Virus record (IMG/VR): IMGVR_UViG_3300021594_000097
Location: 1-64,000 of that record
Reading direction: 5' to 3' (one strand)
DNA length: 64,000 bases
DNA from: a virus
Part shown: piece by piece, positions 1,820 through 39,619 of the stretch
Layout: each line of letters begins with the position of its first letter
Position numbering within the stretch: the first letter of the stretch is position 1
Made by a program: the position numbers and the translations under genes
The notes under the pieces: generated by a model
Told to the model about the DNA's origin: nothing
Database searches by the model: none
Seen by the model: only the letters and a program-made list of their open reading frames with translations

Positions 1820-4800
1820 TTATCTTAAGAAATAGTTATATGCTAGAGGTAATCCTAAAACTGTGCCGTTAAACACTACATTACCTTTTATATTTATCGG
1901 AGCGCCGCTTACAGTTGTAATTGTATTGGCACCAACAAATATGTCACCTGCTGTTACTGAGTTTACATTCAATGAAGCGCCGCCGCCACCGATCTGTGCT
2001 TCAATGTACGCTTTAACAGCTCGTTGAGTTGGCACAATATTATCTGAGTTAGCAGTAAAGAATGGATCTGTACTAAATTCAGTAATACTTGCTGAGTTAC
2101 CACCTAGTGTAACTTCACCTAAACTTAACTCTTGTAGTCCTGCAATATTAAATGCATCAGCATTAAGTGTTGCAACACCTGTACTCTGCTCAATACTAAA
2201 CAAATCGCCAACTCGGAAATTACCGTCTTGGTCAGTAGCTGTGAAGAATACTCGTCCACCATTTGAATCAACTGTTTCGTTAGCTTGAATAGGTTGTTGT
2301 AAAGGAGTGTTTGGATAATTTGTAGTATTAAATCCGCCAGTACCAATATCTAAGAAATCGTGACCAGTTAATCGAACTTGCGAGAATCTAATACGTAGTT
2401 CTACTGCTTCGTTGTTAGCTAATCGAGTACCTACTGGAATAGCAGGACTTACTTGTAAAAATCCTGTGTACGATCCTGGACTAGTTCCTAAGAAACTAAC
2501 AGTATTAACTAATTTAAAGAACTGTCCAGGTAAACTATCAAACACTATGTTTGATCCTGATACTGGCTGCTGTGTTAGTCTCTTCACAGCAATAAATGTA
2601 CCGTCCTGTATAAAGTCTGCACTACCGTTAGAATTTTGACTATCAATTTCTGCACTTGCAGTAATGAACCCAGTTCCTCTGTTAACAAATGTAGGATTAG
2701 CTATTGCTCCGCTATTTAATCTTGCTTCTACTACTACATCGTCAATATTGTTAGGATCAGTGACTGTAATAGTTGGTGCACCGCTGGTATAGCCAGAGCC
2801 TGGTTCAATTAGTCGTATTTCAAATATCTGTTCGTTACTAACGCCAGCTCTACCTCGAGCTCTAGCTCCAATTCTTGCATCAAGGCCTGCTGTTGTAGTA
2901 CCTGAACCAATTAGTACAAATTTGCCCGTTCTAGCTGGATTACCAAATGCTACAGCAAAATATCCTGTGTTTGGTAAGCTGGTAACTGCTGTCCATACAA
3001 TTCCATCTTCTGAATGGTATAATGCTGTTGTTGTAGTTGTTACAACAAATACACCTTGTCCGTATGCAATGTTGTTTGTAGTTATGCTTCCTGCAATAGT
3101 TACAGCACTACTCCAAGTAATACCATCTAAACTGTATGAGCAAGTGCCGTCACTAGCTAGAGCAACAAATCTACCATTACCCCAAGTAATATCATTCCAA
3201 GTTTTGTTTGGTAGTCCTGAACCTGCTGTCCAAGCAATGCCGTCAGTGCTATATACACTATTAGTAGTACCGCTCTTAATAGCTACAAACAATCCCTTTC
3301 CGTATGCAATAGGAAGATATCCAAGTGCTGGTAGAGCATTTGTTGTTAATGACCAGGTTGCGCCGCCGTTGTCTGAATATGCTACATCTCTGTAACCTTC
3401 TGCGATTACAACAAATCTACCAATGTTGCTTGTAACTTGTCCAAATGCAACATTTGTTTGATAGCCAGCACCCGTTGGTATTGTACTAGTGCTCCATACA
3501 TCACCGTCATTTGAATATGCTGCTGTTGTACCTGCTGTAACAATCACAACACTTTGTTTAAATGTACTTGATCCATCGTTAATTAGTCCGCTAGCAATAT
3601 TTTTGTATGAACTAGCACTAGCAGGTAATACCTCTGCACTCCAAGTTACACCATCTATACTCTTTTGAGCACCAGTACCGCTGTTAGGTATTGCAAGGAA
3701 TAAACCTTTTCGTGCAAGACCTGTAAAGTCGTAGTTGACTACTGCTCCTGTTACACTATTGATACTAGTAATAATTACTGTAATATCGTTGGCAGGGCTT
3801 GCGCCACCAACAGATGTGCCTGCAATAGTAATTGTATTACCTCTAACATAATTAGATCCTGCACTGTTAGTTGTTAGGTAGTATCTTTCGCCGTTACGTG
3901 TAATGTTGAAAGTTAATCCTGTACCGGCGCCGCCTGTAGTTGTAACGGCTGTATATTGTGCAGAAGTTTCAAAATAATGCGCATTTGCATAATTACTACT
4001 GCTAATAGTTGTAGCTGTTGTTGTCTTAGGAGGAGCTGTAAAAGAAATAGCTGGTTCAATCAAATAAGTTGACGAACTGTTAGGTGCTACAATGGTTGTG
4101 CCTGGAATAACATGATCCCATCCAGCTGCACCGTTACTTTCTCTTATTACCTCTGCTTCTTTAGAACCAGCATCGTAAGTGCTTATTATACCATAGTTAC
4201 CAATACCTGCGCCGCCTATGATATACACTTTCATTCCAACATAAGCTGTACTTAAAGCACCATCAGTTGCTGATAAAAATACACTAGTTGTTGTTCCGCT
4301 CTGTGCAACGTTACTTACTCGAACATAGCCACTTCCACCTAGCGGTGCAGGTGTAGCTGGCGGAATAACTGTTTCTAAATCAACTTTAACATTTATAACA
4401 GCATTGTCGCGGAACTCGTCAGCTACAACTACATCCCCAGTTCCAGCACCAAAAATATCAATTACAGCTTCAGTATAATCGTTACCTGCATGGTTAAATT
4501 CAAATCCTAGTAGCTGATTGTTATCAGTGAATACATTGCTAATTGTAGCACTATATTGGGTTTGATTATCAACTACTGCTGTTACAGGAGTTTCGTCAGG
4601 GTCAACACCTTCTGCTACAGATCCAAAGTCACCGTAGGAGTTGTTGCCGTTGGTTGCACGAATTCTGCCACCAGTTTCTGCTAGGTAGCCAATATGAGAG
4701 TAGTATGTAAATACAGATACAAGTTCTGCTCTACCGTTATTAGTAATCCATGCACCAATACCGTCTGAAATAACCTGAGTAAAGTCGTTGGATGTTATAG

Positions 4801-32576: not shown

Positions 32577-33590
32577 TTACTTGCCGCCAATGATTGATTT
32601 CTTATTGGCTGCTGTGTCACCGGAGCCTTTCTTCTCTGCGCCGTGACCTTTTGCTACACCACTCATTTTAGTGGCGCTCTTTGAACCAGGAACGTTTACA
32701 TTGCCAGCATTGTCTTCTTTAGGTGAACCACCTTTGAAAACGCCATTGCCTTTTAGTTGACCTTTGTTAGCTTCAACACCTTGCTCTGTTCCAGCTTGGT
32801 TCAAGTTAGATGCGGTACCGCCCATATCATTTTTGTTAGCAACTACGGACTTTGTGTTTGCTCCGTTGTCACCCATTTTACCAAATTGATTGTATGTTTG
32901 GCCGCCTACTTTTTCGACATATTCACGCATTTCTTCTGCGGCGGATTTTTTCATATCCTTTTTCTTGTCGTCTTTTTTATCTTTTTTAGCTTCGAAAGCA
33001 TAAGATTCTTTTTCTTCTTCGTCGTCGGACTCTTCGCCTTCTTCGTCGTCGGAACCTTCTTCGTCACCGCCCATGTCATCCATGTCGCCGTGCTCTTCTT
33101 CACCTTCTTCACCAGACATCATTTTTTCAAATTCAGCCTTTAGTTCGTCTAGTGCGTCTTCTAGATCAACTACACGATCTTCAATACCGCCACCTTCTTC
33201 GTCACTGCCCATGTCATCCATGCCCATGTCGCCGCCGTCTACTTCAACGTCACCCATCATGTTGTCAGCTGGATCACCGCCCATCGCCATTGGGTCAGCT
33301 TCTACTTCAAATTCGTCTAAGTTGAAATCTTCGTCAACTTTTTTATCTTCGTCATCAGACTCATCAACTTCTTCGTCGGAAGCTTCATCAACTTCTTCGT
33401 CATCTGACTCATCAACTTCTTCATCAGAAGCTTCGTCTACATCTTTATCTTCTAGATCATCTTCTAAAAGTGCTTCGTAAATTTCACGTGATTTTTCAAC
33501 CACGATTTCATGGAAAAGCTCTTCAGCACCTGCTTTATCTTCATTGATAAGGCGCTCAAGCATTTCTTCAAACTTTTTGCGATCTGCCAT
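32577..33590 (-). CDS. Acidic prohead core protein (gp67/gp68-like)
   Basis: 337 aa from the ATG at 33590 (MADRKKFEEMLERLINEDKA), which has ACAGGAG upstream; an ATG at 33632 is less likely. Residues 1-45 (EELFHEIVVEKSREIYEALLED) resemble the minor prohead core protein encoded before gp21 in T4-like phages. Residues 46-215 are extremely acidic (D/E/S/G/M), and the last 120 residues are a basic, glycine/asparagine-rich tail. A scaffold or nucleoid role in the prohead is inferred from position between portal and protease and from composition. Contains a 48-bp tandem repeat (33345-33440). Confidence 0.7.
   Translation of the reverse strand: MADRKKFEEMLERLINEDKAGAEELFHEIVVEKSREIYEALLEDDLEDKDVDEASDEEVDESDDEEVDEASDEEVDESDDEDKKVDEDFNLDEFEVEADPMAMGGDPADNMMGDVEVDGGDMGMDDMGSDEEGGGIEDRVVDLEDALDELKAEFEKMMSGEEGEEEHGDMDDMGGDEEGSDDEEGEESDDEEEKESYAFEAKKDKKDDKKKDMKKSAAEEMREYVEKVGGQTYNQFGKMGDNGANTKSVVANKNDMGGTASNLNQAGTEQGVEANKGQLKGNGVFKGGSPKEDNAGNVNVPGSKSATKMSGVAKGHGAEKKGSGDTAANKKSIIGGK
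33345..33440 (-). repeat. 48-bp tandem duplication encoding an acidic 16-residue unit
   Basis: Two copies of VDEASDEEVDESDDE(E/D), residues 51-66 and 67-82 of the acidic core protein. Copies differ mainly at synonymous positions. Confidence 0.75.
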
Positions 33591-33635
33591 TTGTATTCTC
33601 CTGTAAGTAATTACCTGTGGTAAGGCTGTCATGTT

Positions 33636-34677: not shown

Positions 34678-34685
34678 TATTTATA
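34678..34685 (-). promoter_or_regulatory. Consensus T4-type late promoter at the end of gp20
   Basis: TATAAATA, 8 of 8, on the minus strand, overlapping the last codons of gp20 (stop at 34681). Predicted transcription start falls at or next to the ATG of the 82-aa gene. Confidence 0.65.
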
Positions 34686-36430: not shown

Positions 36431-36688
36431 TTAACCTAATCCTCTCATAACATCACCGCTCATACCTCTAATGCCTTTAAGTTGTTTCTGTTGAATTTCT
36501 AACTGCTGACCTGCTGTTTGGGCAAGTTGTTCCATTGGCCCTTTAATTGAGCTTGCTACATCTTCAATTGGCTTTTTAATTTCGCTCATTGCAGATCTAA
36601 ATGATTGCGTTAGTTCACTCATATCCATACCTTTTGCCGAAGCATTTGAAACCATTTGCCTAGAAGTATTCTGCATAGTATTTAACAT
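36431..36688 (-). CDS. Small helical ORF in the +1 frame after the tape-measure candidate
   Basis: 85 aa if started at the ATG 36688, four bases after the upstream stop (TAA-CGGT-ATG). The same frame is open back to 36751, overlapping the end of the upstream gene. The product is helical and polar (MLNTMQNTSRQMVSNASAKG, SAMSEIKKPIEDVASSIKG, QQLEIQQKQLKGIRGMSGD). It reads like the natural C-terminal end of a tape-measure-type protein. No ribosome site is seen. Three options: coupled re-initiation, programmed +1 frameshifting, or a one-base sequence error splitting one gene. Confidence 0.55.
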   Translation of the reverse strand: MLNTMQNTSRQMVSNASAKGMDMSELTQSFRSAMSEIKKPIEDVASSIKGPMEQLAQTAGQQLEIQQKQLKGIRGMSGDVMRGLG

Positions 36689-36692
36689 ACCG

Positions 36693-38489
36693 TTAAGTGT
36701 CAGATTCAATACCATGCAATAACATGTTAGACTGTTTACCAAAATTTTCAAATAGTCTACCAGTTTTACCTAGTGACCCTGTTTCGCGTCCTGGGTCATT
36801 TTGAGTTCCCCTTCTGTCAGGCGGTATTGATCTTTCATTTACTGGTCCGTTTACTACTACGGTTCCTGTTGCATTTACGTTTACATTTTCCCATGTTAAA
36901 CTCATTGCTTCTTTTATTTTAGATGCTAAATCTTCAATTAATTTTGTACGCTCACTTTCTGGCGACTCTTTAATTTGAGTAACTAATTTATTAATTTCTG
37001 CAGCAAGTTCTGGGTTATTAGCTTGGATAGCATTTCTAACTGCTGCACTTGAGTTAGCTACTACCGCTGCCATATCAGATCCACCTATTCCTAAAGTAGA
37101 TCTAACAGTAGATAATATATTGTCAACTTCATTTTTGACATTAAGTTGTGTTCTTAAGTAATTTGCAAAATCGTCTGCACTTTTTCCAAGAGTACTATAT
37201 AGTCCGCTAATTTGTTTTTGTGCTTCTAACGCCATCCCACTTGCAATACCCTGCAATTTTAATAAGGCTTCAACAGCTGATCGACCTTCGTCTTCAACTT
37301 CTTTACCTGTCTTAGGATCTATTGTTTTAGGTCCTTTCATTATTTCTTCTTGCTTTTTCTTAACTCTATCTAAGAACTCAGCACCTGCTAGATCAACATT
37401 TTTTCCTTCAGCTTTAAACTGATCTTGAACTTGGCGAATGGCTTCTGCTAATCCAAAAGCTCCTTCACCAAATACTCTACTGTACAATTCTGTAATATTA
37501 GAATCAACTCTGCCGCCTAATTTAGCTAGTTCTCGCATAGTAGTTGACTGTTGTTCTGCTGCCGCAGTACTTAGAGCTGCTGCAAGGGCTGCTTCGCGCT
37601 CTGCATCTGTTCCATTCTTTAAAACTCTTTCGTATTCTTCAAATGCTTTTACAGTTTTAGGCATCATAGCAACCAGCGGAGCAACATCTTTTCCTGGAAA
37701 CTTTCTAATTACCATATCTTCAAACAACTGCTGCATAGCAGGACCCATAGTTTTAAATAATTGAGAACCTTCAAGGAAAGATTTTCTTGATTTAGTATCT
37801 AACTCAGTTAGATATGCTGCTACGTCACCCTGACGCATTTTTGCTTCTATCTCTTTTTGTAACTGTTGTGTTTGCTTACCAGTTAATTTAGATAGTTTGT
37901 CAAGATTTTTAGTGAACTCCATTGCAGATGCATTTCGTTCTTCTTCTGTTTGTTGTTGGCCTTTGCGTCTATAATTTTCTATAGCATCGTATTGTAAGAA
38001 ACTTTCGTTAATATCTTTAGTTGTTAGACCTAATCGCTGTAATTGTAGAGAAGTTTCAGTGGATTGGCCCTCTAATGTAAAAAAGAACTTGCGCTGCATG
38101 TCCAAGAATCTTGAAGCACCATCAGACACTCCTACTAGGCCATCGCCAAATGTTAAAAGGAAATCAGTATTGCTGCTTATCAGCGATGCCATTTCATCAA
38201 GTTTTAATCTAGCACCTGCGGCAGATTCGTTCATCTTGCCAATACTCATACCAAAATCTACACCAAATCTTGAAAACCCTTGCAGTGTACCTAAGCCACC
38301 TTCAAGATATTTTACAACTGAATTAAGTGCTCCTAGACCAGAAGTAAGATCAGATAATTGAGGATTAGTATCTAGTAGACCGCCAGCAAATCCTTTAAGA
38401 CCCGCAGTAGCTTTGCGTACAGTGCCCGTAAACACATTACCTGCACCGGTAGCTACTTTATCTGAGACGGTTTTGTCATTTTCAGCCAA
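36693..38489 (-). CDS. Probable tail tape-measure protein (gp29-like)
   Basis: 598 aa from a TTG at 38489, which has CAGGAG eight bases upstream. Largely alpha-helical, with hydrophobic G/A/L stretches near the N-terminus (TAGLKGFAGGLL, SDLTSGLGALNSVVKYLEGG) and helical repeats, including NLDKLSKLTGKQTQQLQKEIEAKMRQGD, a motif I associate with tape-measure proteins of T4-like marine phages. T4 gp29 is 590 aa, so the length fits a T4-sized tail. It has its own late promoter and lies divergent from gp26/gp51. No catalytic domain seen. Identification is by pattern and context, not by a clear signature. Its frame ends where the +1-frame ORF continues. Confidence 0.55.
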   Translation of the reverse strand: MAENDKTVSDKVATGAGNVFTGTVRKATAGLKGFAGGLLDTNPQLSDLTSGLGALNSVVKYLEGGLGTLQGFSRFGVDFGMSIGKMNESAAGARLKLDEMASLISSNTDFLLTFGDGLVGVSDGASRFLDMQRKFFFTLEGQSTETSLQLQRLGLTTKDINESFLQYDAIENYRRKGQQQTEEERNASAMEFTKNLDKLSKLTGKQTQQLQKEIEAKMRQGDVAAYLTELDTKSRKSFLEGSQLFKTMGPAMQQLFEDMVIRKFPGKDVAPLVAMMPKTVKAFEEYERVLKNGTDAEREAALAAALSTAAAEQQSTTMRELAKLGGRVDSNITELYSRVFGEGAFGLAEAIRQVQDQFKAEGKNVDLAGAEFLDRVKKKQEEIMKGPKTIDPKTGKEVEDEGRSAVEALLKLQGIASGMALEAQKQISGLYSTLGKSADDFANYLRTQLNVKNEVDNILSTVRSTLGIGGSDMAAVVANSSAAVRNAIQANNPELAAEINKLVTQIKESPESERTKLIEDLASKIKEAMSLTWENVNVNATGTVVVNGPVNERSIPPDRRGTQNDPGRETGSLGKTGRLFENFGKQSNMLLHGIESDT

Positions 38490-38515: not shown

Positions 38516-38523
38516 TATAAATA
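38516..38523 (+). promoter_or_regulatory. Consensus T4-type late promoter for gp26
   Basis: TATAAATA on the plus strand, 8 of 8, 38 nt before the gp26 ATG at 38562. It faces the minus-strand late promoter at 38540-38547, so the two start sites nearly coincide. Confidence 0.65.
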
Positions 38524-38561: not shown

Positions 38562-39398
38562 ATGGAAAACTATTCAAGTCCTCTTCAGAAGTATAAGAGG
38601 GAACCAAAATTGTTAATTGACTTACCCAGTAAGGGAAGTTTTTACCCTCGCAACGCACTAGAAAAGGCAACTGAACTTGAAGTGTACAGTATGACAGCCA
38701 GCGATGAAATGCGATTAAAAACTCCTGATGCACTTTATACAGGCAATGCTGTTGTTAATACAATTCAACGTTGTATACCCGGTATCAAGGACGCATGGGC
38801 CATGCCTGTAATTGATGTTGACTATGTGTTAGCTGCCATTAGATTGGCAACTTACGGTGAAAATATCACTATAAATTCAAAATGTCCTGAGTGTAGTAAC
38901 GAAGATGCGTACGGTATTCCAATTCAATCTATACTTGATCACTACAATTCAGTTAACTTTATAAACGAATTTAGAATTAACAATTTTATTTTTAGAATAC
39001 GTCCGTTAAACTATAGAGAATTAACTGACATACAACAAAAAAGTTTTACTATTCAGCGACAACTTAATCAATACGTGTCACAAATAGACGACCAAGAAAA
39101 ACAACAAGCTGAGGTTAATAGATTATTTGACGACATTAACTCTATTACTATCAACACTATACAAAAAGTTGTTGTTGAAATAACTACGCCTGACGGTGAC
39201 AAAGAAATGCATCATCAGTTTATAGTTGACTTTTTAGAAAACGGCGAAAAAGAGTATTTTGAAGAAACTAAAAAAGTTTACGAAACTAACTTAGAGAATT
39301 GGAACATTAAGCCTAGTAGTGTTGCGTGTAGTGCCTGTAGTCACGAATATAAAATATTACCAAACTTAGACTATTCAAGTTTTTTCGGTCGAGGCTAA
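38562..39398 (+). CDS. gp26: Baseplate hub/assembly protein gp26
   Basis: 278 aa. Matches the gp26 proteins of marine T4-like phages: YKREPKLLIDLPSKGSFYP, ELEVYSMTASDEMRLKTPDAL, NGNAVV-like segment (YTGNAVVNTIQRCIPGIKD), VDYVLAAIRLATYGE, then a CPEC and a CSAC pair (about residues 107-110 and 257-260) that could bind zinc, and RPLNYREL. T4 gp26 (208 aa) acts in baseplate hub assembly. Start: AGGA eight bases before the ATG and a late promoter upstream. The last codons contain a slippery heptamer and the stop lies inside a stem-loop, so part of the ribosomes may shift into the gp51-like frame. Confidence 0.85.
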   Translation: MENYSSPLQKYKREPKLLIDLPSKGSFYPRNALEKATELEVYSMTASDEMRLKTPDALYTGNAVVNTIQRCIPGIKDAWAMPVIDVDYVLAAIRLATYGENITINSKCPECSNEDAYGIPIQSILDHYNSVNFINEFRINNFIFRIRPLNYRELTDIQQKSFTIQRQLNQYVSQIDDQEKQQAEVNRLFDDINSITINTIQKVVVEITTPDGDKEMHHQFIVDFLENGEKEYFEETKKVYETNLENWNIKPSSVACSACSHEYKILPNLDYSSFFGRG

Positions 39399-39433
39399 TT
39401 GAGACTCCGGACTCTGCATTACCTCAATTAGCC
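39380..39433 (+). promoter_or_regulatory. Programmed -1 ribosomal frameshift signal (gp26 to gp51)
   Basis: Slippery heptamer T TTT TTC (39380-39386) is in the gp26 reading phase for simultaneous -1 slippage (TTT TTC becomes TTT TTT). After a 6-nt spacer comes a perfect 11-bp stem, GGCTAATTGAG (39393-39403) with CTCAATTAGCC (39423-39433), loop 19 nt. The gp26 stop TAA (39396-39398) sits in the 5' arm. Spacing and geometry match classical -1 sites in phage tail-assembly genes. Confidence 0.75.
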
Positions 39434-39619
39434 AAAGAATACGAAAACGAAATTAAACAACTCAAGCACAACATCTATAAAATTTGTTGGTTCATGCGAG
39501 GCGGAGTTGCATCAGATGTATTATTCACTGACACAGATATGGATGACTTAATGATTCTTCATACTGTAATTGAAGAAAATATAGAGACTGCTAAAAAGAC
39601 AGGAATGCCGTTAATCTAA
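39398..39619 (+). CDS. gp51: gp51-like baseplate hub assembly protein, in the -1 frame of gp26
   Basis: The frame gives IETPDSALPQLAKEYENEIK, then KICWFMRGGVASD, then IEENIETAKKTGMPLI and stop: 73 residues counted from ATT at 39398. The W-x-MRGG segment and the ENxExxKKxxMP(L/F)I ending are typical of the short gp51 proteins of marine T4-like phages. No ATG, GTG or TTG precedes the conserved part; the first in-frame ATG is inside WFMRGG. Only an ATT overlapping the gp26 stop (TAATT) could initiate it. Production by -1 frameshifting from gp26, giving a fusion of about 352 aa, explains this best. The end overlaps the convergent gene by 9 nt. Confidence 0.75.
   Translation: METPDSALPQLAKEYENEIKQLKHNIYKICWFMRGGVASDVLFTDTDMDDLMILHTVIEENIETAKKTGMPLI

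Follow-up and report, generated by a model that had tools for sequence, protein, structure and literature searches.

The gp26 locus and its features

The window analysed here (64,000 nucleotides, positions 1 to 64,000 of IMG/VR virus record IMGVR_UViG_3300021594_000097) carries on its plus strand an open reading frame resembling gene 26 of phage T4, whose limits and TAA stop were read directly from the window sequence (Table 1). The C-terminus of its 0-frame product reads S-F-F-G-R-G-stop, and the two Phe codons, together with the T that precedes them, form a heptamer, T TTT TTC, that lies in the 0 frame with the X XXY YYZ phase and close to the gp26 stop. After a short spacer comes a perfect 11-bp stem, in which GGCTAATTGAG (39393-39403) pairs with CTCAATTAGCC (39423-39433) around a 19-nt loop (39404-39422). 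From the heptamer onward the -1 frame runs without a stop to a TAA at 39617-39619, or 77 codons past the junction, and a slipped product would therefore comprise 275 + 77 = 352 residues. A first-pass annotation of this DNA had described an in-phase T TTT TTC, a 6-nt spacer, an 11-bp stem over the stop, a 352-residue fusion and a -1 frame devoid of a start codon; direct reading bears out each of these, with no usual start near the junction and the first ATG, GTG or TTG of the -1 frame being the ATG at 39494.

Table 1. Features of the gp26 locus, in window coordinates, with the basis of each assignment
Feature	Coordinates	Strand	Basis
Divergent neighbour, possible tape measure or tail structural protein, 598 aa; presumed client	36693..38489	-	blastp
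Candidate late promoter of the gp26 unit, TATAAATA	38516..38523	+	exact motif match
Short chaperone form (TAC-N), T4 gp26 family, 278 aa; product of normal termination	38562..39398	+	PF12322, phrog_150, AlphaFold
Slippery heptamer T TTT TTC	39380..39386	+	sequence; conservation in relatives; invariant codon choice
-1-frame extension (TAC-C, gp51-like), 77 codons and stop	39386..39619	+	open frame; alignment; AlphaFold model
6-nt spacer GGTCGA	39387..39392	+	sequence
Probable stimulatory hairpin, covering the gp26 stop	39393..39433	+	stem search, folding, compensatory changes
0-frame TAA stop, within the 5' arm of the stem	39396..39398	+	sequence

Several measures indicate how unusual this arrangement is within the window itself. 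RNA folding at the junction gave -15.5 kcal/mol, with z values of -2.3 and -2.5 in two runs, and a perfect stem of at least 11 bp starting 4-9 nt after a random point was encountered at a rate of 0.00015 (20,000 random window points). An in-phase heptamer near the stop, with 30 or more further codons open in the -1 frame, was present in 2 of the 43 window ORFs of at least 100 aa; the second of these (32757-33143, TTTTTTC) was rejected because it lies antisense to a long ORF on the minus strand (32577-33632), so that the combination marks one real gene among the 43.

The neighbourhood offers a candidate for the protein that such a locus might serve. In blastp searches of a database of 10 chosen proteins, the 598-aa divergent ORF matched a 'virion structural protein' of phage XaC1 (22.6% over 376 aa, E 7.8e-7) and a 'putative tape measure protein' of pEa_SNUABM_47 (E 0.004). 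The tape measure gene that had been placed next door to gp26 in the first-pass annotation thus finds weak similarity in its favour, but the gene is divergent from gp26 rather than downstream of it. In 13 of 17 named relatives gp26 is immediately preceded by a long divergent ORF, the exceptions being Atu_ph07, Vibrio 2.275.O, Bellamy and XacN1.

The tape-measure-like ORF is followed in a different frame by a small minus-strand ORF (36431-36751), whose own ATG lies beyond the stop of the first, and the tape-measure-like proteins of relatives in the blastp output are longer (709-798 aa). A second frameshift joining these two ORFs was considered and dropped, since that ATG comes immediately past the stop and, as a further ground, the similarity of the small ORF to the C-termini of the relatives is at noise level; the tape-measure-like gene may be split in the window's lineage. 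Elsewhere in the window, the product of the minus-strand ORF at 32577-33632 is very acidic and rich in Asp and Glu, lies near a portal-like gene, and on the basis of its composition is possibly a scaffold or prohead core protein.

Upstream of gp26, with 38 nt between its end and the start codon, is the motif TATAAATA, which matches the T4 late promoter consensus. Two exact copies are found in the 64 kb (38516-38523 on the plus strand and 34678-34685 on the minus strand), against 10.6 expected from shuffled sequence, which may reflect avoidance of the motif outside selected sites.

The gp26 family and the T4 gene pair

The 278-residue product belongs to a recognizable family, scoring 52.6 bits against PF12322 (cut-off 24.5) and matching phrog_150, a baseplate hub family, with an E value of 5.6e-15; its AlphaFold model has a pLDDT of 88.9. 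A fold search with this TAC-N model against the PDB gave 122 matches, none of which reached an E value of 0.001; a PDB sequence search gave nothing useful, and the window, compared with phages at the nucleotide level, gave no match. In the fold comparison with a viral library, the named matches include baseplate hub and gp26 proteins, beside many that are uncharacterised.

In T4, gp26 and gp51 are encoded by separate, divergent genes, and PF12322 matches both proteins: residues 1-206 of 208 in gp26 and residues 1-201 of 249 in gp51. The tail of gp51 (residues 200-244) in turn matches the -1 domain of cyanophages and KVP40 (probability 80%, pairwise E 1.4e-5), in an alignment that begins at the junction Phe corresponding to the slip site. 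The presence of PF12322 in both proteins, together with the match of the gp51 tail, makes gp51 look like the fused long form and gp26 like the short form. Direct comparison is weak (the TAC-N profile gave 5% against T4 gp51 and 34% against T4 gp26), though PF12322 unites them. Read in these terms, the window would yield the two products of T4, one gp26-like and one gp51-like, from a single gene.

Conservation of the slip site

Relatives were drawn both from named phages and from IMG/VR loci. A tblastn search of the window's gp26 against named phages returned 67 records, all below 60% identity, and most of the 60 listed records are 200-490 kb in length. Twenty-eight named phages were compared: T4 (by accession), 17 from the 60 listed gp26 matches, and 10 from the 60 listed matches to the protein of cyanophage Bellamy. 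All of the first 17 carry an in-phase heptamer at the gp26 end (TTTTTTC in 16, TTTTTTT in XacN1), and their -1 frame continues beyond the gp26 stop, where records often list it as a gene in its own right, hypothetical or gp51. The further 10 comprise six with TTTTTTC, two with TTTTTTT (Melnitz-2 and phiM7), one with TTTTTTA (RHph_I1_18) and one, Vibrio phage 207E48.1 (filed under Ackermannviridae), with no in-phase heptamer at the gp26 end. Such a heptamer is also absent from T4, the sole member of the T4 group in the comparison. Across the 28, then, TTTTTTC is present in 22, TTTTTTT or TTTTTTA in four, and no in-phase heptamer in two.

Two of these phages show what may be altered versions of the site. 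Vibrio phage 207E48.1 (L034, about 1380-1426) retains the gp26 family and a small downstream CDS, and its slip site has possibly been lost; in Rhizobium phage RHph_I1_18 (L032, about 1400-1435) the TTTTTTA lies 27 nt before the stop, beside a TTTAAAC, and the slip site has possibly changed.

Among IMG/VR loci the site is constant. An in-phase TTTTTTC with an open -1 frame was present in all 80 of the cyanophage-like (Bellamy-related) loci, these being the best 80 of a larger set, with one contig ending before the -1 stop; TTTTTTC is likewise in phase in L036. Two further scans, one of which again took the best 80 of a larger set, gave the same result in 83 of 83 loci (L147 reaches the contig end). 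These counts apply to the relatives fetched, many of which are closely related or redundant: the contigs L118-L120 duplicate L001, L002 and L006, L198 repeats the gene of phage 121Q, and L117, which was left out, carries the gene of Atu_ph07. Closest to hand, the junction is letter-identical in six of six IMG/VR loci encoding the same protein as the window. The first-pass annotation had proposed alignment of the junction across relatives as a check on the heptamer, and this degree of conservation upholds it and makes a chance origin of the signal very unlikely.

The constraint was found to act at the level of individual bases. In 80 cyanophage-type gp26 genes (79 IMG/VR loci and Bellamy, with L106 left out for its partial 5' end), the two Phe codons of the slip site are TTT in 80 of 80 and TTC in 80 of 80, and they account for two of only four columns, among 209 tested, that lack any synonymous change; the codon before them always ends in T (TCT in 40, AGT in 38, GGT in 2). 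On the window's side of the family, NNT TTT TTC is present in 67 of 67 distinct gp26 ORF sequences, a set that includes the 5'-truncated L120 and L153, both of which may duplicate others. The preceding codon varies among AAT, AGT, GAT, CAT, CGT, GCT and TCT, and Phe codons elsewhere in the same 67 sequences number 531 TTT to 147 TTC. Because the exact bases of the slip site are fixed while the neighbouring codon varies, constraint on the protein is by itself an insufficient explanation.

The hairpin and its covariation

The stem downstream of the heptamer is enriched in relatives without being universal. Among the 55 distinct junctions, 27 contain a perfect stem of at least 7 bp that begins 4-9 nt past the heptamer, compared with a frequency of 3.2% at 3053 control points taken from these loci; in the other 28 of the 55, some of them among the loci closest to the window, the stem is shorter than 7 bp. 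The spacer is exactly 6 nt in 32 of the 43 fetched rows (repeats included) that have a stem of at least 7 bp. Taking 5-9 nt downstream of the slip site as the distance for a stimulatory structure, the window's 11-bp stem at a spacer of 6 falls within that range and is a putative stimulator.

Within the window's clade, for which 21 distinct sequences could be aligned without gaps, 10 of the 11 stem pairs display at least one two-sided change. The covariation score of 0.275 in these 21 sequences was reached by none of 500 shuffles, and the pair-type count by 11 of 500; six versions of the stem slid by 1-3 columns scored lower (0.05-0.15), although the tested stem was taken from the window, itself one of the 21, and this gives it an advantage over the slid versions. 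Across the clade 64.1% of cells pair. RNAalifold, applied to 11 of the 21 that were picked for keeping the stem, and hence as an illustration rather than a test, recovered this stem as an 8-bp core that includes five doubly changed pairs. The compensatory changes that the first-pass annotation had named as a further check are thus evident in the 21-sequence clade, but the stem itself falls short of 7 bp in about half of the distinct junctions.

Outside the clade, perfect stems at a spacer of 6, with longer loops, are found in Phosso (8 bp), Atu_ph07 (10 bp) and XacN1 (11 bp). In the enterobacterial and Xanthomonas jumbo group, folding at the junction is no better than that of shuffled sequences in 8 of 10 phages (z -0.13 to 1.23), the other two being 121Q (z -2.6) and XaC1 (z -1.7). 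Since the stem is weak or absent in many relatives that keep the heptamer, the slip site appears to be the constant element and the hairpin a lineage-dependent addition.

The -1-frame domain

The extension encoded in the -1 frame behaves as a conserved protein segment. When the window's domain was aligned with those of 45 related loci (46 sequences), mean column identity was 52%, and W37, R40, G41 and N67 were nearly invariant; the leading FF of this alignment is given by construction. The domain was also aligned with the -1 domains of Phosso and Atu_ph07, and its AlphaFold model is all-helical with a pLDDT of 87.8. R3 and L6 are common to at least 70% of the 46 sequences, and in the window both come well before the first usual start: counting the first -1 codon of the heptamer as 0, the ATG at 39494 has index 38 (residue 39), past the near-invariant Trp37.

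The gp51-like label given to this frame in the first-pass annotation holds by position and through a chain of intermediate sequences, but not by direct comparison. Searched against Pfam and PHROG, the window's -1 domain hit no family, and a direct profile comparison with T4 gp51 gave no match (probability 1.7%); the name therefore rests on position and on intermediates. Among the latter, the -1 domain of the window's clade matches the cyanophage domain weakly (28.9%), in an alignment running from residue 1.

Alternative explanations

The -1 ORF could instead be a separate small gene, gp51, with its own start or with translation coupled to the gp26 stop, the heptamer being a by-product of a protein that happens to end in Phe-Phe. 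Several public records do present a separate CDS starting at or soon after the gp26 stop, and of 60 distinct junctions 18 have an ATG, GTG or TTG among the first 13 codons counted from the heptamer, so that separate or coupled initiation is possible in those. The remaining 42 of the 60 have no start in that interval, however, and in the window the first usual start comes too late to include Trp37; moreover, the codons of the heptamer are fixed beyond what the residues call for, and the stem covaries. We regard this reading as improbable for the locus.

Joining of the two frames at the RNA level, by an RNA polymerase that slips on the T6 run and adds or drops a U, appears less probable still. 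A run of at least six T is indeed present in the first 17 named relatives and in all of the further 10 and the IMG/VR loci except Vibrio phage 207E48.1. A six-T run is, however, short for transcriptional slippage, and in 163 IMG/VR loci a C ends the run after six T; its phase is locked to the codon frame, and a hairpin located mostly at a 6-nt spacer and preserved by compensatory changes suits ribosomal slippage better. A sequencing or assembly error, such that gp26 and gp51 truly share one frame or that the second frame is non-coding, would have to be invoked for homopolymer runs that are admittedly prone to error, yet the junction is identical in all six contigs that encode the window's protein, and the same offset recurs in the 163 loci of the further scans, which include some repeats, as well as in 26 of the 28 named records; such an error is very unlikely.

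Interpretation

One gene here very probably gives rise, by a -1 slip of the ribosome, to a short and a long form of a tail-building helper protein. We put at roughly 0.9 the probability that a single reading unit at this locus encodes a pair of tail assembly chaperones, the short form being of 278 aa and the -1 fusion of 352 aa. This reading is based on the anatomy of the signal, its conservation at the nucleotide level, covariation of the stem, conservation of the -1 protein, and the split-gene counterpart in T4; the occurrence of slippage, the ratio of the two forms and the chaperone role are what we infer from the sequences. The -1 frameshift, the gp26 and gp51 identities and the lambda G/GT parallel put forward in the first-pass annotation fit both the conservation and the T4 comparison.

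In the mechanism that we propose, most ribosomes would halt at 39398 and release the short form (TAC-N, gp26 family). A minority would meet the hairpin while T TTT TTC occupies the P and A sites and would then shift one base backwards, open the stem and read the -1 frame to 39619. The resulting long form would consist of TAC-N followed by the small helical TAC-C domain, the counterpart of gp51, and by analogy with lambda G/GT both forms would jointly keep hold of the tape measure protein while the tail is assembled. The likely job of the locus, by the same analogy, is to supply the tape measure with two chaperones, the short one major and the long one minor.

A broader evolutionary scheme is offered more tentatively, with slightly less than even confidence. 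The -1 shift at NNT TTT TTC may represent the ancestral route to the chaperone pair, shared by cyanophages, KVP40-type phages, jumbo phages of the RaK2/121Q/PA5oct type and the window's clade. The T4 group (of which T4 alone was examined) would have replaced the shift with a second gene in which gp51 is fused in frame. The window's sub-lineage would keep, by compensatory changes, a hairpin spaced at exactly 6 nt that both masks the stop of gp26 and governs how much of each form is made.

These observations bear on annotation, and suggest that public records of such phages named 'baseplate hub subunit gp26' and 'baseplate hub assembly catalyst gp51' are often the two ends of one frameshifted gene. 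In such records gp51 may carry an annotated start that is never used, and the near-invariant slip site could serve as an annotation rule. The relatives also provide a natural hairpin series for measuring how stem strength affects the ratio of short to long chaperone, and the separate genes of T4 can be set beside them to study the replacement of a frameshift.

Comparison with known systems

The G/GT pair of phage lambda reportedly comprises a short chaperone and a minor -1 fusion, and its slip sequence is GGGAAAG. The two systems are alike in having a slip heptamer at the 3' end of the upstream ORF, a short form with a minor fusion, and a link to a tape measure gene that is putative in the window; they are unlike in that the window's slip sequence differs, its tape-measure-like gene is divergent, and its hairpin lies 6 nt downstream of the slip site, over the stop. 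The lambda frameshift is attributed to Xu, Hendrix and Duda (2004) in PMC10885494. A second point of comparison is the TAC locus of Pseudomonas phage Adele (Vandenendeviridae/Andersonviridae), for which PMC12846349 (2025) reports a -1 frameshift at the TAC-N end. As in the window, a poly-T slip motif is present and the extension is often annotated as a separate hypothetical gene; in contrast to the window, the motif is GTTTTT, the phage families are different, and the TAC genes are upstream of the tape measure.

The closest parallel is found among the T4-like phages themselves. Frameshifting is said to be apparently conserved in several of their groups, with T4 using genes 26 and 51. Vladimirov, Gautam and Davidson (2022, Virology 566:9-15) reportedly name gp26 (TAC-N) and gp51 (TAC-NC) as T4-like tail assembly chaperones, and PMC12846349 credits the same study with poly-T frameshift signals in T4-like TAC-N genes; the frameshift idea is thus already in print for T4-like phages. 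The first-pass annotation, which knew of no -1 slippage for the gp26/gp51 pair, is to be corrected on this point. Some T4-like phages, according to PMC10885494, have a short gene and a longer fused gene in place of frameshifting. Among the papers listed by literature searches, none describes the window's lineage or its hairpin in its title or abstract opening, which does not imply absence from print.

The window locus is thus a further, well-supported case of the published T4-like chaperone frameshift. It shares with the gp26/gp51 chaperones reported in the 2022 study the same genes, the same logic of short and long products, and PF12322. It differs from T4 in that T4 employs two divergent genes and no shift, whereas the window belongs to an uncultivated lineage with a strong, covarying hairpin.
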